DNA of 64,000 nt from Candidatus Sulfopaludibacter sp. SbA3 (GTDB lineage: Bacteria; Acidobacteriota; Vicinamibacteria; Vicinamibacterales; UBA2999), in NCBI GenBank assembly GCA_945903265.1, contig CAMDNQ010000019.1:1-64000 (forward strand), read 5' to 3'. Shown piece by piece: positions 1 to 55,580 of the stretch. The position numbers and the translations under genes are program-made. How positions within the stretch are numbered: position 1 is the stretch's first letter; each line of letters starts with the position of its first letter. The notes beneath the pieces are model-generated. The model was not told the origin of the DNA. It saw only the letters and a list, made by a program, of their open reading frames with translations, and ran no database searches.

Positions 1-2871
1 CAGGTTGAACACCTCGAAGATCCCGTCAATCGTCACGCTCCCGGCAATCCGCTGCCGCTTCTGGAAACGCACGTCAAAACGGTGAATCGGGTCGCCCGTG
101 ATGTCGGCGCGCGGCCAGATCGCCGCGCCGCCGGTCGCCTGGAACGCGGGGGTCGTCAGACGGCCGGTGCCGCCAGAGCCCACGTTGCGCAGGTCGCCGC
201 CCCAGCTCGTGCCGAAGCGCGGACCGGAGCCGAAGAAGTAGAGACCGCTGAACTGGAAGCCCGCGGGGAGTTCCCAGATGCCGTTCAGCGTTGCGCGGTG
301 ACGCTGATCGTCCGGCGCCAGCGTGTAATCCGCACGGAGGTCCGGAGCGAGCTCGAACGGGATTTCCTGGAGCGTCGTCGGAATGTCGGCGCTCGGATCG
401 AGCACAACGTTCCACGGGCTCGGCCCGCCGATGCCGCCGTCGTCATAGAACCACGACAGCGAGTAGGTCGCGTTCATCTGCCACCGGTTGCTGAACCGCT
501 TGGTGAAGGAGTTCTCCCAGCCGTAGTAGTTCGACCGGCCGCTCATCACTTCGCCGAGGATGATGCCGTACTGCGGGAAGGGGCGGGAGGCGATGTTGGT
601 GAACGGGAAGTTCGCGCCCGTCGCCTGGTTGTACGAGAGGTTCGCGTTCAACCGGCGCTCTTCCTTGCGGCCACCCGTGAACACGAAGTTCGACTCCACC
701 GACATCAGCGCGCCGACCTGCCGCTGCACGCCCAGCGAGCCCATGTGGCTGTAGGACGTGTCGTGTTCGCCCATCGGAATTTCGATGGTGATTGAGCGCT
801 GGTAGCAGGGCACAGCACCCGTATAGCCGCTGGCACGCCACGCCGCGAAGGTTCCGGCCATCTGAGGCTCGTCGCACGAGCGCGCGAGCACCTGCTCATA
901 CGTCGGCCACGCACCGTTGAACGGGTTCCCGCCGAAGTCCGCACGCCCGTCGTTGATGACCGTGACGCCGAAGTGCTCGGTGAGGATGTGCGACTGGTGC
1001 AGCGCGTCGTTCTCGAGCTGCGTGAAGAAGATGCCGTAGCCGCCACGGAGCACCATGCGGTCGCTTGCCGCATAGGCGAACCCGAGGCGCGGCGCCACGT
1101 TGTCCAACTCCATCGGGCGGTTGCCGGACAGCCACGGCGCGGCCTTGACAGACTCGCCGTGCACGCCGCGGTCGACATCCCAGCGCACGCCGAGGTTCGC
1201 CGTGAACCGGTCGCCGATCTTCCAGTCATCCTGCAGCCAGCTGGCGAAGATCTGCCGGTGCAGCTCGTAGGAGAAGTCGCCGATGTTGACCGTGAAGTCG
1301 CGCATGAGCGGCGACAGCGCATTCAGGTTCCAGGTGGACGCGTCGTTCCACACCGGAAGCAGCTGCTCGATGTTGGCTGGCGGCGCCGCGTTCAGCGTGT
1401 ACTGCCCGGTGCCGATGTTGCTCCACGACTGCGGCATGTTGTAGAAGATGACCTCGCCGCCAAGCTTGATGTCGTGACGCCCGCGCCATCCGAACGACGT
1501 CGAGAAGTCGTCGCGGATCGAGTAGTTCTTCTCACCGGTGCGCTGCGGGTTGTTTGTCGCCGATCCGACCGAATAGCCGGTGAAGTTGAGCCGCGGCACG
1601 GCCGGCGGCAGCCGGCGGCCCGACGTGATGCCCTCGAGAATCTGGGGGATGTGGGCGGGAATATTCGCGCCCCAGCTCGCGTTCGGCTCGAGCGTGAAGA
1701 AGTTCTCGTTCATGCCGACGCGGACTTCGTTGACGCTGGTGCCCGAGAGCACCTGGGTGTAGACGCCGAAGAGCTGCGTCGCGTGGCGGTTGTTCTCGCC
1801 CGACGTCGACGGGTGCACCGCGGCGCCGCCGCCGGAGCTCGGGATCAGGTTGTCGTACTTGTTCCAGCGGGCCGCGAGACGATGCTGCGGACTGAACTGG
1901 AAGTCACCCTTCACGCCGCCCTTGCTTTCCGTGCGCGTGCCCGGCTGGTCGATGTTGAAGCTGGGATAGCGGCTGTTGAAGGTGATGGTGTTGGGCTCTT
2001 TCTCGTGTTCCCAGTTGACGAAGAAGTGGATCTTGTCGCGGACGATCGGGCCGCCGAACGTGCCGGAGAGCTGCCGATCCGAGTACGGAATGACGCGGTC
2101 CTGGATGTGATCCTTCGCGTTCCACTTGTCGTCGCGGAAGTAGCCGGCGAACGTCCCCTCGAAGGCGTTCGTCCCTGACTTCGTGACCGCGCTCACCATC
2201 ATGCCCATGGTGCGGCCCTGGGTGGCGTCGAAGCGGTTGGTCGAGATAACGAATTCCGCGATCGAGTCGCGGCTGTAGCGCGGCTGGTTCTGTCCGCAGC
2301 AGACCGTCAGCGTCTGCTGCTGGCCGTCAACCGCGATCTGGAAGAAGCCCTGGCGGTCCTGGGGAATTTCGCTCGACGAGTTCGAGCGGCTGCCCGGCGC
2401 GAGGAGCGTGAGGTCCATCCAGTTGCGGCCGTTGAGCGGAATGTCCTGCATCTGCCGCGGGTCGATGTTGCTGCCGATGCTCGACGTCGTCGTGTCGAGA
2501 AGCGGCGCCTCGCCGGTGACGGTCACCGTTTCCTGTACACCCGACACACCCATGTCGAGATTCAGCGTGACCTGCCGGCCCAGGAGCATTTCAACGCCAG
2601 GCCTGGCGGCGGTCGCAAATCCCGAAAGTTCCGCGGTGACGCGGTAGAGGCCCGGGCGCACCGGAATGCGATAGAGGCCCTGTTCGTCCGTGACGGCAAC
2701 GAATGTCGTGCCGGCCGCCTCGTTCGTGGCGGTTACCGTGACGCCCGGCAGCACGCCGCCGGTGTTATCGCGCACAGTCCCGCCAATGACGGTGTCCTGT
2801 GCGTGCGCGAGCGCCGGTACGAGGAGTACAGCGCCGACGACGAACATCAATAGCAGTCGACCCAATTTCAT
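1..2871 (-). CDS. TonB-dependent receptor, Oar-like, C-terminus beyond window edge
   Basis: The reading frame is open from ATG 2871 to the left edge, giving about 957 residues of an outer-membrane receptor. Residues 1-25 are a Sec signal ending LAHAQ. A carboxypeptidase-regulatory-like beta domain follows (about 28-110, with GGTVRDNTGGVLPGVTV), then a TonB plug (about 115-240, with the IPLNGRNWMDL motif). The rest is beta-barrel sequence rich in aromatic strand ends. A strong ribosome site, AAGGAG, lies 8 bases before the ATG and fixes the start. Known Oar-like receptors of Acidobacteriota and Myxococcota have this layout and about 1000-1200 residues. The substrate cannot be told from sequence. 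It is transcribed away from the gene group at 3066-10677 and may be separate from it. Confidence 0.93.
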   Translation of the reverse strand, partial: MKLGRLLLMFVVGAVLLVPALAHAQDTVIGGTVRDNTGGVLPGVTVTATNEAAGTTFVAVTDEQGLYRIPVRPGLYRVTAELSGFATAARPGVEMLLGRQVTLNLDMGVSGVQETVTVTGEAPLLDTTTSSIGSNIDPRQMQDIPLNGRNWMDLTLLAPGSRSNSSSEIPQDRQGFFQIAVDGQQQTLTVCCGQNQPRYSRDSIAEFVISTNRFDATQGRTMGMMVSAVTKSGTNAFEGTFAGYFRDDKWNAKDHIQDRVIPYSDRQLSGTFGGPIVRDKIHFFVNWEHEKEPNTITFNSRYPSFNIDQPGTRTESKGGVKGDFQFSPQHRLAARWNKYDNLIPSSGGGAAVHPSTSGENNRHATQLFGVYTQVLSGTSVNEVRVGMNENFFTLEPNASWGANIPAHIPQILEGITSGRRLPPAVPRLNFTGYSVGSATNNPQRTGEKNYSIRDDFSTSFGWRGRHDIKLGGEVIFYNMPQSWSNIGTGQYTLNAAPPANIEQLLPVWNDASTWNLNALSPLMRDFTVNIGDFSYELHRQIFASWLQDDWKIGDRFTANLGVRWDVDRGVHGESVKAAPWLSGNRPMELDNVAPRLGFAYAASDRMVLRGGYGIFFTQLENDALHQSHILTEHFGVTVINDGRADFGGNPFNGAWPTYEQVLARSCDEPQMAGTFAAWRASGYTGAVPCYQRSITIEIPMGEHDTSYSHMGSLGVQRQVGALMSVESNFVFTGGRKEERRLNANLSYNQATGANFPFTNIASRPFPQYGIILGEVMSGRSNYYGWENSFTKRFSNRWQMNATYSLSWFYDDGGIGGPSPWNVVLDPSADIPTTLQEIPFELAPDLRADYTLAPDDQRHRATLNGIWELPAGFQFSGLYFFGSGPRFGTSWGGDLRNVGSGGTGRLTTPAFQATGGAAIWPRADITGDPIHRFDVRFQKRQRIAGSVTIDGIFEVFNL

Positions 2872-3020
2872 CTCAGAAACTCCTTCCGGCAAGCCGCAGC
2901 CGCCGAAATTCCACATGTCGCGAGGGTTGCCCGTAGGGGCGGGCACGATTATACAGCGCAAGATGAGTTCCACCACGAATCTGTTGCCGCAGAAGCACTT
3001 ACGGCCACGAAGCTCACGAA

Positions 3021-3052
3021 AATCCAAGATCCGGCAGCGCCGGAATCCAAGA
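3021..3052. repeat. Small hairpin flanked by direct repeats
   Basis: The 194-base gap between the TonB receptor and the secreted protein at 3066 holds a CCGGC-AGC-GCCGG hairpin (3031-3043). It is flanked on both sides by the 9-mer AATCCAAGA (3021-3029 and 3044-3052). There is no T-run, so it is not a classic terminator. The remainder of the gap holds a partial GTAGGGGCGGGC motif near 2935, resembling half of the palindrome at 7907, and nothing else recognisable. Confidence 0.4.
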
Positions 3053-3065
3053 AACCGTAGCCGCG

Positions 3066-3785
3066 CTACTGAGGCGAACCCGGCGCGCTGATCCGGCCCT
3101 GGTCGGCGGCCGGTGCAGGGCGCCCCTGAAGCGCCGGCTTCGGCAAATCCGGGTCCGAATAGTAGATGAACTGGTAACGGATACCGCGACCCTCGGTATC
3201 GAGCCAGCCGAGAGACTGCTGGAAGAGCCCGGGCTCAGGGTAACCGTCAGGGACCTTGCCCTCCATGATCAGCAGCTTGTTCTCGTGAAAGTAGACCGAT
3301 GCAAACGTCCGCGACTTGTCCGGATTCGTGAGCTGCACCTGCTGTCCCGCCACCAGATCCATGAAATTCCACATCAGGTGGGTCGCCTTGACGCCCGGCC
3401 GTTCCATCAGCTTCCACGTGGCATAGACGACGGCGCCGCGCACGTCGTTCTTCCAGTAGCCGAGGCCGGTGGCGGCGACGCCACGGCAGGTTTCGGCCCC
3501 AATCGCGCACTGCGTCTTCGACTTCTCCGTGAGGATGCGCTCGACGGGGGCGTAGTCGATCACCGTCACCGTGTAGGTCCCCGGCCCGCTCCGGGCGGTG
3601 TACACGCGGCCCTTCAGGTCGGCTCCGTATTCCGACTTCCAGGTGGTGTCCGACACGACCGGCTGGCCAGGAAAATTGCTCGTGAAGCGATCCTCCCGGC
3701 TGGCAAACTCAATCCACTCCTGCGCAAACGCGGTCGCCGGCGTCGACATGAGTGCCAGCGCCGCCATGATGTGCATCATCCGCAT
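3066..3785 (-). CDS. Secreted protein of unknown function, paralogue of the next gene upstream
   Basis: A 239-residue protein with a Sec signal ending TPATAFAQ, predicted periplasmic or secreted. The start is taken at ATG 3785, which has AGGAG 8 bases upstream. An in-frame TTG at 3815 overlaps the stop of the preceding gene as TTGA and is the alternative. The mature part opens with EWIEFASREDRFTSNFPGQP and carries a conserved CRG motif, GYWKND and a C-terminal PEPGLFQQSLGWLD segment. All of these recur in the protein at 3812-4558, so the two form a tandem duplicate. I recognise no catalytic motif. It sits at the end of a series containing two exported MBL hydrolases and could act with them. 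Confidence 0.85.
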   Translation of the reverse strand: MRMMHIMAALALMSTPATAFAQEWIEFASREDRFTSNFPGQPVVSDTTWKSEYGADLKGRVYTARSGPGTYTVTVIDYAPVERILTEKSKTQCAIGAETCRGVAATGLGYWKNDVRGAVVYATWKLMERPGVKATHLMWNFMDLVAGQQVQLTNPDKSRTFASVYFHENKLLIMEGKVPDGYPEPGLFQQSLGWLDTEGRGIRYQFIYYSDPDLPKPALQGRPAPAADQGRISAPGSPQ

Positions 3786-3811
3786 GGGCCTGCTCCTGAA
3801 GTTCGACGGGT

Positions 3812-4558
3812 TCAACGAATTCCGGTCGCGTCGATGCGGCCGAAATCAGAAATGAAGCTGCGCTGGTGGAGGGGCGGCTTCGGGAGATCCGGGTCGCCGT
3901 AGTACACGGTCGCGTAGCGGATGCCGCGGCCGGTGGCATCGAGCCATCCGAGCGACTGCTGGAACAGCCCCGGCTCGGGTTCCGCTTCCGGGACGGTTCC
4001 TTCCATGACGATCAGGCGATTGTCGTGGAAGTAAATGGATGCGAAGGTGCGCGTACCATCCGGATTGGTCAGGTGCAGGAGCTTCCCCGCCACCATGTCC
4101 TGGAAGCCCCACATGAAATGCGTGACGCGCACGCCGGGGCGCTGCATCAGCCTGAATGCGGCGAAGTCGATAGCCCCACGGATGTCGTTCTTCCAGTACC
4201 CGACGCCCGTGTCGGCGCCGCCCCGGCAGGTCTCCGCGCCGACGGGACAGGCCTTCGCCCGCGCCGTCAGGATCGATTCAATCGGCGCATAGTCGATTGC
4301 GGTGATCTGGAAGCGCCCGTTGCCGCGCGTGGCGGCGTACACCCTGCCCTTCAGCTCGGCGCCGAACTCGGACGTCCAGGTTGTCGGCGTGACGGTCGGG
4401 GGACCGGGAAAGTTGGAGGTGAAGCGGTCGTCGGGACTGGCAAACTCCGCCCACTCGCCGGGACCGCGGTCCATCACCATGCGGCCGACGGTCTGCGCCT
4501 GGATCTGCGCAACGGTGAGGCCGGCGGCGAGCAGCACTCCCAGCGTCCGGCGCATCAT
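3812..4558 (-). CDS. Secreted protein of unknown function, tandem paralogue
   Basis: A 248-residue protein with a signal peptide (MMRRTLGVLLAAGLTVAQIQAQ). ATG 4558 overlaps the stop of the MBL gene as ATGA (4558-4555), so translation is probably coupled to it. The open frame extends further upstream, but that part lies antisense-free inside the MBL gene and looks like out-of-frame sequence. The mature region matches the 3066-3785 product over its whole length: EFASPDDRFTSNFPG, AETCRGGADTG, GYWKNDIRGA, THFMWGFQDMVAG, EPGLFQQSLGWLD. Two conserved cysteines, in the paired CxxGAETC pattern, may form a disulphide. The function is unknown. Conservation of both copies argues for a shared substrate rather than a decaying duplicate. 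Confidence 0.85.
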   Translation of the reverse strand: MMRRTLGVLLAAGLTVAQIQAQTVGRMVMDRGPGEWAEFASPDDRFTSNFPGPPTVTPTTWTSEFGAELKGRVYAATRGNGRFQITAIDYAPIESILTARAKACPVGAETCRGGADTGVGYWKNDIRGAIDFAAFRLMQRPGVRVTHFMWGFQDMVAGKLLHLTNPDGTRTFASIYFHDNRLIVMEGTVPEAEPEPGLFQQSLGWLDATGRGIRYATVYYGDPDLPKPPLHQRSFISDFGRIDATGIR

Positions 4559-5580
4559 GAACGGGTCTTCGCCGCTTCCTCCAGCGCAATCACACGCGCC
4601 CGGGCGCAGTCGAGCACCATCGACCAGTAGCGGTTCGCACGCTCGCGGCCGAGCAGAATCGGGTTCGGGCCGTTCGGGTTCTTCCGGATCGCCGCCATAT
4701 CCGCGATCGTGTCCTGATAGAGGCCGGGGTGCGTGTTCATCAGCGCCTCGGCGCCCATCGGCCGGGCGTACTTGTTCACCACCTCTTCCAGCCTCGCCAG
4801 CGACGCACGCGTCGGATGATGCAGTCCGCCGCCGTGCAGCCAGATGACCGACGACTGGCCGCGCCACTTCACGGGAATGAAGATGCCGAGGCTGCCGTCC
4901 GAATGGCCGAAGAGCGTCGTGAACGTGAGCGTGGTGTCGCCGAGCGTCAGCGTCTGCCCGTGCGTGATGTCCATGTCCCGCTTGGCTAGCGGCCGTTCAG
5001 GACGCTGCGCGGGAAGCGTGGCGTCCCAGTCTTCCTTCGCCATCAGGATGCGCGGCTTGTAGGTCGTCTGGAACCAGCCCGCGCCGCCGGTGTGATCGGT
5101 CTGTCCCGGATGGCCGTGGCTCAAGACGATGTACTTGATCTGCGCCGGATCGAGCCCGGCCTTCTTCATGCCCGGGACGATGATGTCGCGCGCTTCCTCG
5201 GTGGTGTTCAGCGTGTCGATGAGGATGAGCCCGTCACTGGTCTGGATGACAAAGGCGCCCTGCGACGCCAGCCCGACGTACCACACGTTGTCGAAGACCT
5301 TCGTCGGCTCGACGGTGTAGTCCTTCAGCGTCTGCCCCGTCGCCTCGAGGGCCAGCGCCACGCGCTGCGGGCCCATCGACGAGCAGACGTTGGTGTAGTG
5401 CCATTGCAGATCGGTGCCCGCGTACTTCTTCGCGTCGGCAACGATCCGCTGCGCTTCCGCGGATGCCTTGAACTGCGCGGGCGTCGGAAACCGGACTGGT
5501 CCGGCGCCGCCGCCCCGCTGGGCCAGCGCGGTGCCGGCTGCGCATAGCGCGATGCATGACGCGACGAGAATGTTTCGCAT
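4555..5580 (-). CDS. Exported MBL-fold hydrolase with an interrupted zinc motif
   Basis: A 341-residue metallo-beta-lactamase-fold protein with signal peptide MRNILVASCIALCAAGTALAQ. The zinc-binding loop reads SHGHPGQTDHTGG (about residues 154-166). The first two histidines and the D-H pair are present, but four residues (PGQT) separate them instead of the single residue of HxHxDH. Later histidines that could complete the site are GHSDGS and NTHPG. The N-terminal extension (about 25-95) includes a helical ALALEATGQTL segment. The fold assignment is firm, the reaction unknown. It lies 11 bases after another exported MBL gene, and its stop overlaps the start of a secreted unknown, so all are probably one transcript. 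Confidence 0.88.
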   Translation of the reverse strand: MRNILVASCIALCAAGTALAQRGGGAGPVRFPTPAQFKASAEAQRIVADAKKYAGTDLQWHYTNVCSSMGPQRVALALEATGQTLKDYTVEPTKVFDNVWYVGLASQGAFVIQTSDGLILIDTLNTTEEARDIIVPGMKKAGLDPAQIKYIVLSHGHPGQTDHTGGAGWFQTTYKPRILMAKEDWDATLPAQRPERPLAKRDMDITHGQTLTLGDTTLTFTTLFGHSDGSLGIFIPVKWRGQSSVIWLHGGGLHHPTRASLARLEEVVNKYARPMGAEALMNTHPGLYQDTIADMAAIRKNPNGPNPILLGRERANRYWSMVLDCARARVIALEEAAKTRS

Positions 5581-5591
5581 GTGCTCCCGTC

Positions 5592-6506
5592 CTATTTTTT
5601 AGCCTTCGCCTGCTCGTCGGCGAGGAACTTCTGCGAGACCATCTTCAGCCGGTCCATCCATCCGCGCCACGAGGCCGGATCGACGAACGGGTTCGGCATG
5701 TCGCCGCGCCGCAGCTGCAGCTGCGCCATCCGCTCGAACGTGCCGCCGTTCGGATACGTCGACATGGCGAGCCAACTATGGACAAGCAGGCCGACCGAGA
5801 CGTCCGGGATTGTCGCCAGACGATTGACGCTCGCCACGAACTGCTGCGCGCCCTCCATGCCGCCACGCGGCTCGGGTCCGCCGAAGAGCATCGCCTTGTA
5901 GGGACGCCCCTTGTCGTACGCGGTGAACTCGAACGACGCGCCGCCCGGCGTGTGGCCCGGCAGCAGGTACACCTTCAACGACGTGCTGCCGAGCGTGACG
6001 GTATCGCCATCCTTCAGCACGATGTCGCGCTCGATGGTGCGATGAAACGGCGGCATCGCCGGCACCGGCCGCCTGGCGTATTCATCCATCAGCACCCAGT
6101 CGCCCTCGGCCGCCGCCACGCGCGCGCCCGACAGTTCCTGGATCCGCGCGGCGCCGCCGAAGTGATCGAGATGCCCCTGCGTGAGCAGGATGTACCGGAT
6201 GTCCTTCGGGTCGTAGCCGAGATTGCGGATGTTGTTGAGGATGTGGTCGACGTACGGTTCCTGCGCCGTGTCGACGAGGATCAGTCCGGCCGTCGTCGGA
6301 ATCAGCCAGACCGACACCGTGCCGGGCCCGACGTGAAACACGTTGTCGAGCGCCTTGAACGGCGGAATCTTCTGATACTCGACATCGCGCCCGCGGGTAC
6401 CGCGGAACGTCTGACTGAGCGTTTCAGTGGCCGGCGCGGCCGGCGCCTGGGCGAATGCTGCCACGGGCACCAGCGCCAACATCGTTACGAGCAATCCTTT
6501 GAACAT
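5592..6506 (-). CDS. Exported subclass B3-like MBL-fold hydrolase with Gln in the zinc motif
   Basis: A 304-residue protein with signal peptide MFKGLLVTMLALVPVAAFAQ. The zinc motif is TQGHLDHFGG (Q110, H112, D114, H115), with later ligands at H185 (PGHTPGG) and H243 (LVHSWLA). This is the subclass B3 arrangement with glutamine in place of the first histidine, as known in GOB-type enzymes. The length and the PGHTPGG motif fit B3 relatives, many of which are not beta-lactamases. It is likely periplasmic. An MFS carrier lies 71 bases upstream and another MBL gene 11 bases downstream. Whether it acts on beta-lactams, lactones or other esters cannot be decided here. Confidence 0.9.
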   Translation of the reverse strand: MFKGLLVTMLALVPVAAFAQAPAAPATETLSQTFRGTRGRDVEYQKIPPFKALDNVFHVGPGTVSVWLIPTTAGLILVDTAQEPYVDHILNNIRNLGYDPKDIRYILLTQGHLDHFGGAARIQELSGARVAAAEGDWVLMDEYARRPVPAMPPFHRTIERDIVLKDGDTVTLGSTSLKVYLLPGHTPGGASFEFTAYDKGRPYKAMLFGGPEPRGGMEGAQQFVASVNRLATIPDVSVGLLVHSWLAMSTYPNGGTFERMAQLQLRRGDMPNPFVDPASWRGWMDRLKMVSQKFLADEQAKAKK

Positions 6507-47051: not shown

Positions 47052-49220
47052 ATGCGCAAGGTATTTGGATCGTTCGGAGCCAAGGTCATCACTGGTTTCG
47101 CACTCGTGTGCGCCGTCAGCATCGGGGTCAGCGCGCGTCAGACGGGCGATGCCGTGGCCGTCGACGTGGACGACATCGGCGGTGTCGTCCGGAGTTCGAA
47201 GGGGCCCGAAGCGGGCGTCTGGGTGATCGCTGAAACCGCGGACCTCCCGACGAAGTTCGCGAAGATCGTCGTCACCGACGAGCAGGGGCGCTATCTGGTT
47301 CCCGATCTGCCGAAGGGCAACTACACCCTGTTCGTGCGCGGCTACGGACTCGTCGATTCGAGCAAGGTCCGGTCGGCGCCGGGCCGCACGCTGAACCTCA
47401 CGGCCATTCTCGCGCCGAATGCGCGTGCCGCAGCGGAGTACTACCCCGCCGGGTACTGGGCCTCGCTGCTGCAGATTCCTGACAAGAGCGAGTTTCCCGG
47501 CACGGGCGCCCAGGGCAATGGCATTCATCCCGACATGAAGATGCAGGCGCAGTGGCTGGGTTGGTTGAAAAACGCCAGCTGCTATACCTGCCATCAGATC
47601 GGCAACAAGGCCACGCGCGAGATTCCGAAAGAGTTCGCGACGATGAAGACGACGCGCGATGCGTGGGCGCGACGGATTCAGTCAGGCCAGGCGGGTCCCG
47701 ACATGGCGCGGGAGCTTGGACTCTTCGGGGCGCCGCGCGCGCTGCAGATGTTCGCCGACTGGACGGATCGAATCGCCGCCGGCGAGCTGCCGCCCGTCCC
47801 CCCGCGGCCGCAGGGCACAGAGCGCAACGTCGTCATCACGCAGTGGCACTGGGCGGATGACAAGACCTATATGCACGACCAGATCTCGACCGATCGCCGC
47901 AAGCCGACGGTCAACGCGAATGGACCGATTTACGGCGCGCCGGAGTTGAGCAAGGACTTCATCCCCGTCCTCGACCTCACGACGCACCGCCCGAGCACGA
48001 TTCCGGTGGCGCCGAGCAACTCGCGCGTGCCGATGGCGCCAAGCAAGGTGCTGCAGTCGTCGCCCTTCTGGGGTAACGAGCAGATCTGGTCGAGCCGTAT
48101 GGACATCCACAACCAGATGCTCGACCAGGACGGACGCGTCTGGATGACGACCCGCGTGCGTCCGCCGCAGACACCGGCATGGTGCCGTCAGGGGTCCAGC
48201 CATCCGTCCGCGAAGCTCTATCCGATCACCGAGTCGACGCGGCAGGCGGCCGTCTACGACCCGAAGACGAAGAAGCTGACGGAGATCAACACCTGCTTCG
48301 ACACACACCACCTCAATTTCACCGAGGACGCCGACAACACGCTCTGGTTCAACGGCTATGGCAGCCCGTATTTCGGGTGGATCAACACGAAGGTGTTCAA
48401 CGCGACCGGCGACGAACAGAAGTCACAGGGGTGGACGCCGATCATTCTCGACACCACCGGCAATGGCCGCCGCGACGCGTACGTCGAAGCGGGTCAGCCG
48501 ATGGATCCGGCGAAGGACACGCGGATTGGTGATTCGCTCTACACCACCACTCCCGCCGCCGATGGTTCGATCTGGGGATCGGTGCTCGGGTTCCCCGGCT
48601 CGATTATCCGGATGGTCCCCGGCGCGAACCCCACGGAAACGTCTCTCTCGGAGCGGTACGAGCTGCCGTGGCTGAACCCGAACGCGCCGATCCAGGGCTA
48701 CTCACCCCGTGGCATGGACGTCGATCGCAACGGCGTGGCGTGGGTGGCGCTCGGCAGCGGCCACCTGGCGAGCTTCGACCGCAAGAAGTGCAACAGCCCG
48801 CTAAATGGACCGAAGGCCACGGGACAGCACTGCCCCGAGGGCTGGACGCTCTACGCGAACCCGCTGCCGCAGTTCAAAGGGCTCCAGGACAACGGCAGTT
48901 CCGAGGGCAGCTACTACGCGTGGGTCGATCAGTTCGACACGCTCGGCCTTGGCGCGAACACGCCGATCGCGACCGGCAATCAGTCGGATGCGTTCCTCGC
49001 GCTGCAGGGCGGTAAGTGGGTCACGCTGCGCGTGCCGTATCCGATGGGCTTCTACACGAAGGGGCTTGATGGCCGGATCGACGATCCGAACGGTGGATGG
49101 AAGGGACGCGGTCTCTGGTCAACCGTCAGCACCCGCGCGCCGTTCCACATGGAGACCGGCAAGGGGACGCCGCCGATTGCGATGAAGTTCCAGGTCCGGC
49201 CGAACCCGCTCGCGAAATAA
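47052..49220 (+). CDS. Exported monoheme protein with a carboxypeptidase-regulatory domain and propeller-like body
   Basis: A 722-residue protein. The N-terminal segment KVITGFALVCAVSIGVSARQ is a signal. Residues about 40-120 are a carboxypeptidase-regulatory-like sandwich (GVWVIAETADLP, GRYLVPDLPKGNYTLFVRG). A heme c motif CYTCH follows (177-181). From about 250 the chain is WD/NHL-like with repeated VWMTTRVRPP, TLWFNGYGSPYFGW and GSIWGSVLGFPG strands, as in virginiamycin B lyase-type propellers. This suggests a periplasmic redox or lyase-like protein. It is divergent from the SMP-30 gene and shares its promoter. Confidence 0.88.
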   Translation: MRKVFGSFGAKVITGFALVCAVSIGVSARQTGDAVAVDVDDIGGVVRSSKGPEAGVWVIAETADLPTKFAKIVVTDEQGRYLVPDLPKGNYTLFVRGYGLVDSSKVRSAPGRTLNLTAILAPNARAAAEYYPAGYWASLLQIPDKSEFPGTGAQGNGIHPDMKMQAQWLGWLKNASCYTCHQIGNKATREIPKEFATMKTTRDAWARRIQSGQAGPDMARELGLFGAPRALQMFADWTDRIAAGELPPVPPRPQGTERNVVITQWHWADDKTYMHDQISTDRRKPTVNANGPIYGAPELSKDFIPVLDLTTHRPSTIPVAPSNSRVPMAPSKVLQSSPFWGNEQIWSSRMDIHNQMLDQDGRVWMTTRVRPPQTPAWCRQGSSHPSAKLYPITESTRQAAVYDPKTKKLTEINTCFDTHHLNFTEDADNTLWFNGYGSPYFGWINTKVFNATGDEQKSQGWTPIILDTTGNGRRDAYVEAGQPMDPAKDTRIGDSLYTTTPAADGSIWGSVLGFPGSIIRMVPGANPTETSLSERYELPWLNPNAPIQGYSPRGMDVDRNGVAWVALGSGHLASFDRKKCNSPLNGPKATGQHCPEGWTLYANPLPQFKGLQDNGSSEGSYYAWVDQFDTLGLGANTPIATGNQSDAFLALQGGKWVTLRVPYPMGFYTKGLDGRIDDPNGGWKGRGLWSTVSTRAPFHMETGKGTPPIAMKFQVRPNPLAK

Positions 49221-52340: not shown

Positions 52341-52378
52341 AAAAAGGCCCGGGAAGCGTCTGCCTCCCGGGCCTTATC
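52341..52378 (-). terminator. Rho-independent terminator
   Basis: On the minus strand AAGGCCCGGGA, a short loop and TCCCGGGCCTT are followed by a T-run. It would end transcripts from the TonB-like gene at 52519 before they reach the YeiH gene. Confidence 0.85.
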
Positions 52379-52518: not shown

Positions 52519-53412
52519 TCAAATACCCGGCTGGGACGCCACCGTAATCTGGATGCGTTTACGGAACTTCACAGGCTTCCCATCTGCCCGCGCGGGATAG
52601 TACTGCCACCGGTTCGCGGCAGCGGTAACGAGCTCGTCGTAGGCAGCGCCGAGTGATACGAGGGTGCTCGCGGCCTCCACCATCCCCATCTCGTTGATGA
52701 CGACTTCGATGACGCCGGTCATGCCCCCGGGACGGATCCGGCCCGGATACTTCGGCAGCTCCTGCTGGATGGCAATCGGGGCGGTGACCTTCGCGTCCTC
52801 GCCGCTGTAGATACGGGGCTCAGGCACAGGGGCCGCGGCCACCGGAGCGGGAGGCGGAGGAGGCGGAATCGCCTTGACGCTCAAGTCGTGAAAGCCTGTC
52901 GCCAGTGTTCGCAGGTCTGACAGCGGCGACTGCGCGGCAGCCTGCGTCATGTCGGGGTCGGACACGGTATCGACCACGCGCTTGAAACCCGACGCGGCCA
53001 CCGCATACTCCTGCCGATCGAATGCCGCCTTCGCCTGCTGATAATTCTGCTGAATCAGCGACGGAAGCAGCCGGCGCCGCGCATCGCTGAACACGGTCCG
53101 CATGCGCGGCGAGACATCGTCGCCGGGACGGAACAGCGGATCCTCGGCAATGATCCCTTCGATCGCCTTGTCGGCCTCGTCACGGCGGCCCACGGCAATC
53201 AGGCACAGCGTGCGATAGACCTCGACCGCCTGCCTGTCGACGGTGCCATGTTTCCCCGCCGCAAGCCCCTCGAGCATCGTCAGCGCATCTTCGTACTCGG
53301 CCGCGGCGTAGAGCGCGCGCGCGGTGTCAATCGGATTGGCAATCGGACCCTGCGCGCGGGCTTCGGGCGCAATGAGGACGAGCAGCAGCAGGCAGGAGAG
53401 CGTGGTGCGCAT
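52519..53412 (-). CDS. Periplasmic protein with a TonB C-terminal-like domain
   Basis: A 297-residue exported protein (signal MRTTLSCLLLLVLIAPEARAQ). Residues about 25-110 look like helical repeats (TARALYAAAEYEDALTMLEGL). A proline run precedes the last domain. Residues about 215-295 resemble a TonB C-terminal domain: LPKYPGRIRPGGMTGVIEVV, then ANRWQYYPARADGKPVKFRKRIQI. There is no N-terminal membrane anchor, so it is not a typical TonB. ATG 53412 overlaps the pseudokinase stop (TGATG), so the two proteins are made together. It may bind periplasmic or outer-membrane partners. Confidence 0.83.
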   Translation of the reverse strand: MRTTLSCLLLLVLIAPEARAQGPIANPIDTARALYAAAEYEDALTMLEGLAAGKHGTVDRQAVEVYRTLCLIAVGRRDEADKAIEGIIAEDPLFRPGDDVSPRMRTVFSDARRRLLPSLIQQNYQQAKAAFDRQEYAVAASGFKRVVDTVSDPDMTQAAAQSPLSDLRTLATGFHDLSVKAIPPPPPPAPVAAAPVPEPRIYSGEDAKVTAPIAIQQELPKYPGRIRPGGMTGVIEVVINEMGMVEAASTLVSLGAAYDELVTAAANRWQYYPARADGKPVKFRKRIQITVASQPGI

Positions 53413-55580
53413 CACCGTTTCCTCATATCGACGCTGAGACGCGACGGGGCCTTCAGCGACACGGTCGTGCGCACGACCTGTTCACCGAGCTCCGGATGGC
53501 GGAAGACGACTTCGTGCGGCCCGATCGGAAGGGCGTGGTTGCCGATCGGCGTCTCGCCAATCCGCTCGCCGTCGATCCAGACGTCGGCCCATGGCTGCGC
53601 GTTGAGCGCCAGGGCGCCGTTGGGCCACTCCACCTTCACCGACGCCACCTGGCCCGGCGCCACGGTAATGGTGCGTGTCGCGCGGTAGCCGAGCGCGTCA
53701 TTGACGATGTCGAGCTCGTGGCGGCCGGCGGCCACCATGATGCGATCGCTGCGGCTGGTGCCGAGGAGTTTCAGGTCTTCGTAGATCTGGACTTCGGCCG
53801 GCGCCGAGATCGCAATCCATGCGGAGACCGGCGCGCCCTGCGCCGACGCACTCATCGGCACGACGAGGGACGCGGTCGTGCCCGCGGCCACCGTGACCTC
53901 GTGCGTCACCGAGCCGGCGTCGTTCGTCAGCACCACGAGATGGACCCCCGGAAACAGCCCCTCGAGCGTTGCCGGCGTGACGCCGCGGAGCGTGCCGTCC
54001 ACGGTCAGGCGTGCGCCGGCCGGATTGCTGCTGATGGCGAGCTGCCCTGTATCCGGTCCCGCCTTCGGAAGATCGATCACCTGCGAGATCGTCCCGCCGG
54101 CGGTGATCGTGAGCGGAATCACACGCGGCTCGCCGTCGCCCACGACGCGCAGCACATGCGAGCCTGGCGCAAGTTCGAGGGTCAGCGGCGTGACGCCGCG
54201 CGGCCGGTCGTCAATCAGTACCGCCGCTCCAGCCGGCATCGTTTCGACGACGAGGATGCCGGGCGCCTCGGCGGAGGCCGCGGGAATCAGGTACCAGCGT
54301 CCGAGCATCGCGCCGGCAGAGGCCACGGCGAAGAGCACAGCAGCGGCGACGAGCGCCCGTGGACGCCATGAACTCGCGGGGGCAGAAGGTGCGAGAAGTG
54401 CGGGAGGTGCGAGGGGTGCAAAACGTGTAGACGGAGGTTCAGAAGGTTCAGCAGATTCCGAAGGTGCGGCAAATTCAGCGCGGGCAGGGCGGACAACAAG
54501 TGCGGGCACGTGCGCTGCCGGCGCGGCGGATGTCTGAGCCGGCGCCTGGACCGACGTCTGAACCGGCGCCGGGACTGGCGTCGGGACCGGTGTCTGGACT
54601 GGCGTCGCGACCGACGCCGCCTTCGGCATCGCGACGTAGCGGGTGCAATCCGTGATGAACGCCTTCAGCGCCGTCAGCTGCGAGGTGTAGTCGCCGGTGC
54701 CGAGGGCGCGATCGAGCTCCACGCGTGCGTCGGTGGCCGAGGCAAACGACTGGCGCGCATCGAGCTGCAGCGCGCGTGTCAGCCAGACCCGCAGCGCGGC
54801 GGGAAGCGGCTCGATACCGCCGGCGGCTGTGAGGCCCCACGCCCCCTCCGAGAGCGTAGCCACGCGGTCGGGATACTCCTCGACTTCGAGAGGGCGGCCC
54901 AGAATCAGCGCCAGCGCGACGGCGCCGATCTGGGTCACGTCCGTCCGCTGATCGAACGTCGCCGGACCCGCCGATTTCGGCAGCACGATCCGCAGTTCCT
55001 TCCAGTAGCGGTCATGCGACAGACGCAGCTCCTCGAGTGCGCTGCCAAGCATGTAGTCGACCACGACCAGGCGTCCGCTCGGCGTGACGATAATGCGCTC
55101 GGGCGCAATACTTCCGTGGCCTGTGCCAGGCAGGCGCTCGTGCAGCATGGCGACGGCGGGCACGAGCTGGCGGATCACGCACAACGCGGCATTGATCTCG
55201 ACCGACAGGAGCTGCTGTTTCGCCACGGTGAGCAGACTGGACAGCCGCACGCCCGGGACGCGATCCGACACGACGCCCAGCGCGCCGGACGGCAGGCGCA
55301 GGACTCCGCGTACCCGTGCGTACGAGGTGTTCTGAAACGCGGCGAGCGCACTCACTCGTTCGCGCAGGGTGGCCTCGAATGACTCGGCACTCGCGAGATC
55401 GTCTCGGATTTCCAGCAGCTCCAGCGGTTCGCCGCCGGGACCGACGGCATGAAAGCGCTTGCCCAGCGCATCCTCGAAGACCGGGCGTGGCGACGTCGAC
55501 GCAGCGGATGTAATGGTGTCCATAGGTCCTGCCGCTCGCCGGTGTGCGAGTTCCGTACCCTCGTCATGCGGCACCGACAT
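53412..55580 (-). CDS. Transmembrane pseudokinase with PEGA domains
   Basis: A 722-residue protein. Residues about 35-310 are a kinase-like fold: LRLPSGALGVVSDRVPG, HGSIAPERIIVTPSGRLVVVDY. The HRD aspartate is replaced (H155-G-S), and no VAIK lysine is evident, so phosphotransfer is unlikely. A Pro/Thr/Gln linker (about 325-400) and one membrane segment (ALVAAAVLFAVASAGAMLG) follow. The C-terminal part has four PEGA-like sandwiches, as in NPAGARLTVDGTLRGVTPATL. ATG 55580 is listed; ATG 55523 is an alternative. The layout suggests a cytoplasmic sensor linked to a periplasmic wall-binding part. Confidence 0.87.
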   Translation of the reverse strand: MSVPHDEGTELAHRRAAGPMDTITSAASTSPRPVFEDALGKRFHAVGPGGEPLELLEIRDDLASAESFEATLRERVSALAAFQNTSYARVRGVLRLPSGALGVVSDRVPGVRLSSLLTVAKQQLLSVEINAALCVIRQLVPAVAMLHERLPGTGHGSIAPERIIVTPSGRLVVVDYMLGSALEELRLSHDRYWKELRIVLPKSAGPATFDQRTDVTQIGAVALALILGRPLEVEEYPDRVATLSEGAWGLTAAGGIEPLPAALRVWLTRALQLDARQSFASATDARVELDRALGTGDYTSQLTALKAFITDCTRYVAMPKAASVATPVQTPVPTPVPAPVQTSVQAPAQTSAAPAAHVPALVVRPARAEFAAPSESAEPSEPPSTRFAPLAPPALLAPSAPASSWRPRALVAAAVLFAVASAGAMLGRWYLIPAASAEAPGILVVETMPAGAAVLIDDRPRGVTPLTLELAPGSHVLRVVGDGEPRVIPLTITAGGTISQVIDLPKAGPDTGQLAISSNPAGARLTVDGTLRGVTPATLEGLFPGVHLVVLTNDAGSVTHEVTVAAGTTASLVVPMSASAQGAPVSAWIAISAPAEVQIYEDLKLLGTSRSDRIMVAAGRHELDIVNDALGYRATRTITVAPGQVASVKVEWPNGALALNAQPWADVWIDGERIGETPIGNHALPIGPHEVVFRHPELGEQVVRTTVSLKAPSRLSVDMRKR

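Follow-up and report, generated by a model that had tools for sequence, protein, structure and literature searches.

This locus raises the question of what a kinase-like protein without catalytic residues does when its gene is followed by that of a protein with a TonB-type C-terminal domain. We analyzed a window of 64,000 nucleotides (the whole stretch of DNA) in which the original prediction had placed two open frames at 52519-55580, here called genes A and B. Gene A was claimed to encode a kinase fold lacking the catalytic Asp and Lys, a membrane segment and four PEGA-like sandwiches, and gene B a TonB-type C-terminal domain without an anchor. Both frames were found to be open, with exactly these limits (Table 1). 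The two frames overlap by 1-4 nt, depending on whether B starts at GTG 53415 or at ATG 53412. The start codon of A is uncertain and may truly be the one at 55523, since an alignment of relatives places their starts near M20 of the window protein, to which 55523 is nearer. The gene upstream of A diverges from it on the plus strand, from 55449 or 55723 onwards, and the terminator behind B has a fold of -31.8 kcal/mol (z -5.1). Because the upstream gene points away, the frames overlap and a terminator follows B, A and B look like a two-gene unit. The window also encodes a secreted protein with a CxxCH (haem-type) motif (47052-49220); a gene resembling it, as judged by eye, lies directly behind B in genome G035 (L062 9465-11624).

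Table 1. Coordinates of features at the A/B locus (window positions) and of ATPase-type loci (locus positions)
Feature	Coordinates	Strand	Details
Gene A	53412..55580	-	pseudokinase, linker, membrane helix, four PEGA; 722 aa; alternative start ATG 55523
Pseudokinase domain of A, residues 31-297	54690..55490	-	L56 at beta3 Lys position; HGS for HRD; DYM for DFG
Pro/Ala-rich cytoplasmic linker of A, residues 317-404	54369..54632	-	low confidence; model
Single membrane helix of A, residues 406-430	54291..54365	-	model
PEGA 1, residues 441-503	54072..54260	-	Pfam and model
PEGA 2, residues 512-575	53856..54047	-	Pfam and model
PEGA 3, residues 586-649	53634..53825	-	first half of partner-linked module A6
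PEGA 4, residues 654-718	53427..53621	-	second half of module A6
A/B overlap	53412..53415	-	GTGATG; TGA stop of A within start of B
Gene B	52519..53415	-	exported TPR-TonB_C protein, 297-298 aa
Signal peptide of B, residues 1-21	53353..53415	-	A-x-A before invariant Gln
TPR-like helical domain of B, residues 28-182 (about)	52870..53334	-	model, fold matches
TonB C-terminal domain of B, residues 209-293	52537..52791	-	Pfam, profile, model
Intrinsic terminator 3' of B	52344..52375	-	14-pair stem, T run
Six ATPase-type loci	L073 2446-3315; L154 4108-5125; L231; L238; L240; L246 2696-3695

We analyzed the kinase-like part of A by profile searches and structure prediction. At E<=1 Pfam Pkinase did not detect the window protein, and at E<=0.001 it matched one of 27 relatives. 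Similarity to PknB was detected by phmmer with gene A (7e-5) and with the family profile (2e-7). The AlphaFold2 model had block pLDDT values of 91-98 over residues 31-310 and matched PknB in Foldseek (6e-12), and VIA-align of the kinase fold gave, among the 50 matches listed, Z values of 21.0-23.4 with 235-271 residues aligned at an rmsd of 2.8-3.7. Profiles and model confirmed the claimed fold, predicting for this part a bilobal protein-kinase fold that is clear despite the missing Pfam match. The absence of the beta3 Lys and the HRD Asp was likewise confirmed: the former position is an invariant Leu in 16 aligned relatives, and the window protein has HGS for HRD. The DFG position keeps its Asp in the window protein (DYM) and is Glu in most relatives. 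Alignment with PknB indicated that the catalytic-loop Asn is replaced by Arg, and the glycine-rich loop of the family is shortened to D-[GA]-x-G-x-R or similar. Thus, A lacks the first two of the three residues that mark an active Ser/Thr kinase (beta3 Lys, HRD Asp, DFG Asp) and falls among bacterial pseudokinases as delimited in a section of PMC12599244, by loss of at least one of three catalytic residues. In a wider set of 67 sequences, five distant ones were canonical kinases, and the 62 non-canonical ones comprised 58 family sequences and four distant controls. Since none of the 58 family sequences retained the beta3 Lys or the HRD Asp, the catalytic loss is old and common to the family rather than a local mutation.

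Two explanations of the kinase-like part were rejected. It is no kinase pseudogene, given an uninterrupted reading frame, a confidently predicted fold and invariant residues (D37, G40, R42, L56 and R112 among them) that are kept across several families of the order. Nor do we read a role in anti-phage defence from the PADLOC matches of A (PD-T4-6, 2e-7; MkoA, 3e-8) or from NCBIfam MAD6 (9e-5, 21.1 bits against a cut-off of 460), as these weak matches cover the kinase-like part only and were taken as generic kinase similarity. An enzymatic activity of another kind, such as the AMPylation or glutamylation of SelO or SidJ, is known from bacterial pseudokinases, according to a section of PMC12599244, and would be compatible with the retained Asp at the DFG position. 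We nevertheless consider it extremely improbable for A: it has lost the beta3 Lys, the HRD Asp and the catalytic-loop Asn, it has no Gly-rich loop of normal length, and even the DFG Asp has given way to Glu in most relatives.

The rest of A agreed with the predicted membrane segment and sandwiches. PEGA (PF08308) was detected at E 2e-26 (92.1 bits against a curated cut-off of 20.8); Pfam finds three PEGA stretches, while the AlphaFold2 model shows four PEGA-type sandwiches behind a helix at residues 406-430. Arginines precede this helix, and for this reason the PEGA part should lie on the outer side of the membrane. Among 34 kinase-bearing proteins, the distance from the membrane helix to PEGA3 was 171-186 aa in 28 and 106-139 aa in the other six, and the cytoplasmic linker measured 88-236 aa. 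A near-constant distance from membrane to PEGA3 combined with a variable linker is as expected for a rod with a loosely tethered head.

We found a TonB_C match in B (E 2e-6, 28.5 bits against a cut-off of 24.6), with TIGR01352 just below its cut-off (26.0 against 27.1). TonB2 was matched at 7e-6, and the predicted TonB fold aligned with 6i97_D (Z 9.8, rmsd 2.7, 87 aligned). The model of B (pLDDT 88.7) has an eight-helix TPR-like domain and the TonB C-terminal domain, with a short proline-rich linker between them. The former domain had been missed before; Pfam TPR is below cut-off in the window protein and above it in the relative L145. The N-terminus is of the signal-peptide type. Q22 follows A-x-A and does not vary among the 12 partners aligned, a pattern that fits a signal-peptidase I site, so that B is predicted to be exported and to be unanchored, in line with the original claim. 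In the TonB energy transducer, an N-terminal membrane anchor engages ExbB/ExbD, as described in part of PMC8262864, and B lacks an anchor of this type. Were B an ordinary energy transducer for TonB-dependent transporters, with A incidental, its TonB_C domain would be explained, and the genome has 25 plug-domain matches (23 over cut-off) that such a protein might serve. With a signal peptide and no N-terminal anchor, however, B would have no site for ExbB; its linker is short and its gene follows a PEGA gene, so that we regard this role as very unlikely.

The pairing was checked across the 162 genomes of the order, which GC and gene content suggest to be Vicinamibacterales (Acidobacteriota). 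Profile A8 found B in 63 of these at 1e-20, and 84 B loci with a TPR part were present in 60 genomes; L262, with no TPR part, was left out. The gene directly before B carried PEGA3-4 at 74 of the 84 loci, two loci lay at contig ends and eight had something else. Five of the 74 PEGA-adjacent loci, including some truncated by a contig end or frame, gave no recognised TonB_C. In the opposite direction, B lay behind 70 of the best 85 PEGA3-4 matches (48 of the best 50), with two of the 15 lacking it beside contig ends, and behind 74 of all 143 matches at E<=1e-20. Of the 43 genomes of the window's family, 34 had A-like matches and 32 had B-like ones, which in many cases covered TonB_C alone. PEGA3-4 and B distances correlated at 0.77 over 73 pairs, partly through shared ancestry, the best of 1,000 permutations reaching 0.22. 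In genomes with more than one pair, 23 of 29 comparisons gave the B encoded with A as its best fit, against about 14 expected by chance by our own arithmetic, and the other six did not. The pair is thus inherited as a unit. No recurrent third gene was common to many of 45 larger stretches, close relatives in one genus aside. A neighbour cluster of 27 loci was read as shadow frames rather than a gene, since the example inspected runs antisense to the core genes. Loci in G053, G080 and G093 with a weak B TPR match (4e-10 to 7e-9) encode TPR-FGE without a PEGA gene beside it and were dropped. In G272, two pseudokinase-PEGA genes stand in tandem (L162 4576-6681 and 6836-8944), and the B gene is on another contig without a PEGA gene before it.

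The conserved pairing of the original prediction therefore stood as regards position, B lying mostly directly behind PEGA3-4, and did not stand as a pairing with the pseudokinase. A pseudokinase was present in 34 of the 74 partner-linked PEGA genes; the other 40 had no kinase domain in the DNA read, four of them being cut by a contig end. The pseudokinase family itself had 113 matches in 83 of the 162 genomes, of which 34 (in 33 genomes) preceded B and 79 had no partner gene behind. Because the kinase is absent from 40 of 74 pairs and B from behind 79 of 113 pseudokinases, B is coupled to the PEGA3-4 module rather than to the pseudokinase. In a tree of PEGA3-4 and B (FastTree, midpoint-rooted, topology read without support values), 32 of the 34 pseudokinase copies grouped in a single clade, which also held truncated members and a kinase-less one, L228. 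The remaining two were both copies in G214, and pseudokinase presence required four parsimony changes. Frames of 1375-2002 aa in G165, G374, G378, G380, G425 and G426 have the same pseudokinase domain and no B behind. A peptide-pattern scan of the genomes yielded one distant PEGA kinase (L031), with no same-strand gene directly behind it in the ORF list.

Kinase-less relatives of A mostly have short cytoplasmic tails. The pattern [DENSG]-x-L-x-x-F-x-[SPTAD]-[ED], hereafter the D-x-L-x-x-F-x-x-E motif, occurred in 14 of 36 such tails (shuffled mean 0.12, maximum 3 of 36) and in none of the 34 pseudokinase linkers, a count that is no blind test, as the pattern was drawn up after about a dozen tails had been viewed. 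Four previously unviewed tails (L076, L255, L258 and L260) also matched. Examples with D-x-L-x-x-F-x-[STP]-E are L073, L154, L238, L240, L244, L245, L255 and L260, and DPWGFG takes its place in several members of a single genus within the window's family. The same cytoplasmic partner may be reached in alternative ways, by the pseudokinase or by the short peptide. A gene resembling the XrtA/PEP-CTERM-associated ATPase adjoins the pair or B at six loci, none of which has a recognised pseudokinase; three of these genes were compared with TIGR03015 and matched it at E 1e-58 to 1e-68, below cut-off. This would suit a role in assembling a secretion or surface-polysaccharide apparatus, in which the pair positions an outer-membrane or wall component and works with a cytoplasmic ATPase in some lineages, and the fold matches of B include PcrH, BamD, PilF and TonB structures. 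On the other hand, TPR fold matches are generic, and the ATPase-type gene was seen neither at the window nor at any pseudokinase locus, of which the shorter ones stop soon after B. We find an assembly role quite doubtful.

Relatives outside the order indicated how far the plan may vary. The B TPR profile at 1e-5 found 20 of 297 genomes of the phylum; ten of the 20, the window's own genome among them, belong to the order. Among the ten outside, a PEGA gene lay directly before the B-like gene in three; weak matches in G123, G237, G278 and G321 were left aside. G048 has a DUF4388 head and a TPR-TonB_C partner, which matched B at 1.5e-81 over its full length (profile including G048) and at 5e-16 in the TPR part (profile without G048), making it a convincing homologue of B over the full length. 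G105 combines a zinc-ribbon head with a TPR-FGE partner. The head of G046 is a zinc ribbon with an intact kinase (HRD, DFG and beta3 Lys present, Pfam 3e-53), and its partner is TPR-PEGA-propeller. At L147, in a genome outside the order, a gene for zinc ribbon, intact kinase and PEGA (4310-5989) is followed by a TPR-PEGA-propeller gene (2510-4306). In some relatives the cytoplasmic part of A has been swapped for other parts. The intact kinase of G046, whose protein shares the head-membrane-PEGA plan and is followed by a TPR partner, also speaks for an inward receptor, in which B and the PEGA rod would sense the state of the envelope and the pseudokinase would allosterically control an active Ser/Thr kinase or another cytoplasmic enzyme; the fold of A is indeed closest to bacterial receptor kinases such as PknB. 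Yet a kinase-like head is missing from about half of the pairs, no kinase gene recurs beside the pair in the neighbour comparison, and the G046 partner is a weak match to B (4e-6) without TonB_C. We therefore think a receptor of this kind unlikely.

Since the PEGA rod and a periplasmic TPR protein are constant and heads and tips vary, we favor a two-gene trans-envelope connector made of a non-catalytic docking head, a PEGA rod and a TPR/TonB_C adaptor, a proposal to which we give about an even chance of being right. Protein A would sit in the inner membrane, with a cytoplasmic pseudokinase that is presumably unable to carry out canonical phosphotransfer and would act as a head for docking or conformational switching. 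From there, a flexible linker and a single helix would connect to the periplasmic rod, built of four PEGA domains. B, translated from the overlapping gene and then exported, would dock on PEGA3-4 by its TPR domain and hold an outer-membrane or peptidoglycan partner by its TonB C-terminal domain. We have shown the anatomy of the two proteins and their pairing, and infer these contacts as well as any direction of signalling. The connector would pass a conformational or positional signal, or tether an assembly, across the periplasm without an energy source of its own. The link from an intracellular signal to wall or outer-membrane partners, as originally suggested, fits this topology. More tentatively, as something we hold possible but not probable, PEGA and an exported TPR protein may form a modular trans-envelope device of its own kind with both ends exchanged. 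Its heads would be the pseudokinase, the short D-x-L-x-x-F-x-x-E peptide, DUF4388, zinc ribbons or an active kinase, and its periplasmic tips TonB_C, FGE or a beta-propeller.

Co-inheritance of the pair across the order, with the inside part replaced in some relatives, suggests a cell-envelope connector of a kind about which little is known. PEGA domains occur widely and are mostly unexplained. Should the pair prove to be a connector, they would be given a job, and a TonB C-terminal domain would be used without the TonB anchor. Few bacterial pseudokinases have a known function; that of A has a constant, genetically linked partner in 33 genomes, and its role is therefore testable. In the available main text of the pseudokinase family review PMC12599244, neither PEGA nor TonB occurs. 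Our literature search (PEGA with TonB, pseudokinase, kinase or FGE), with most subscription papers outside its scope, gave no paper whose listing describes the pair.

Several known systems resemble the pair in part. PknB-type receptor kinases share the cytoplasmic kinase fold, the single membrane helix and the repeated extracytoplasmic domains. They have PASTA where A has PEGA; the A family differs in having lost catalytic residues in every member checked and in the exported partner encoded behind. GLW pseudokinases differ at the HRD position, which reads HGA, HGS or HGL in the A family and never GLW, and, unlike them, the A family presumably belongs to one order of a phylum other than proteobacteria. 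EssB, a cytoplasmic membrane pseudokinase with a scaffold role, as outlined in part of PMC12599244, resembles A, as does YukC, in carrying its pseudokinase on a membrane helix. A is of another family, though, with another extracytoplasmic part, and we found no type VII secretion context. OCTIN-like FGE proteins recall the G105 partner, TPR and FGE behind a PEGA protein; FGE-domain proteins with Kinase or PEGA extensions, as well as a periplasmic assembly, are described in part of PMC5915273. The window partner B has TonB_C instead of FGE. Myxococcus GltG has a cytoplasmic FHA domain, a membrane helix and a TonB-type domain and forms, with the exported TPR proteins GltD/E/C, an envelope-spanning machine, according to part of PMC3169522. 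The A/B pair likewise combines a cytoplasmic signalling domain, a membrane helix, a TonB-type domain and an exported TPR protein, but no motor genes of the AglRQS type were noticed next to it, and TonB_C sits on the exported partner and PEGA on the membrane protein.
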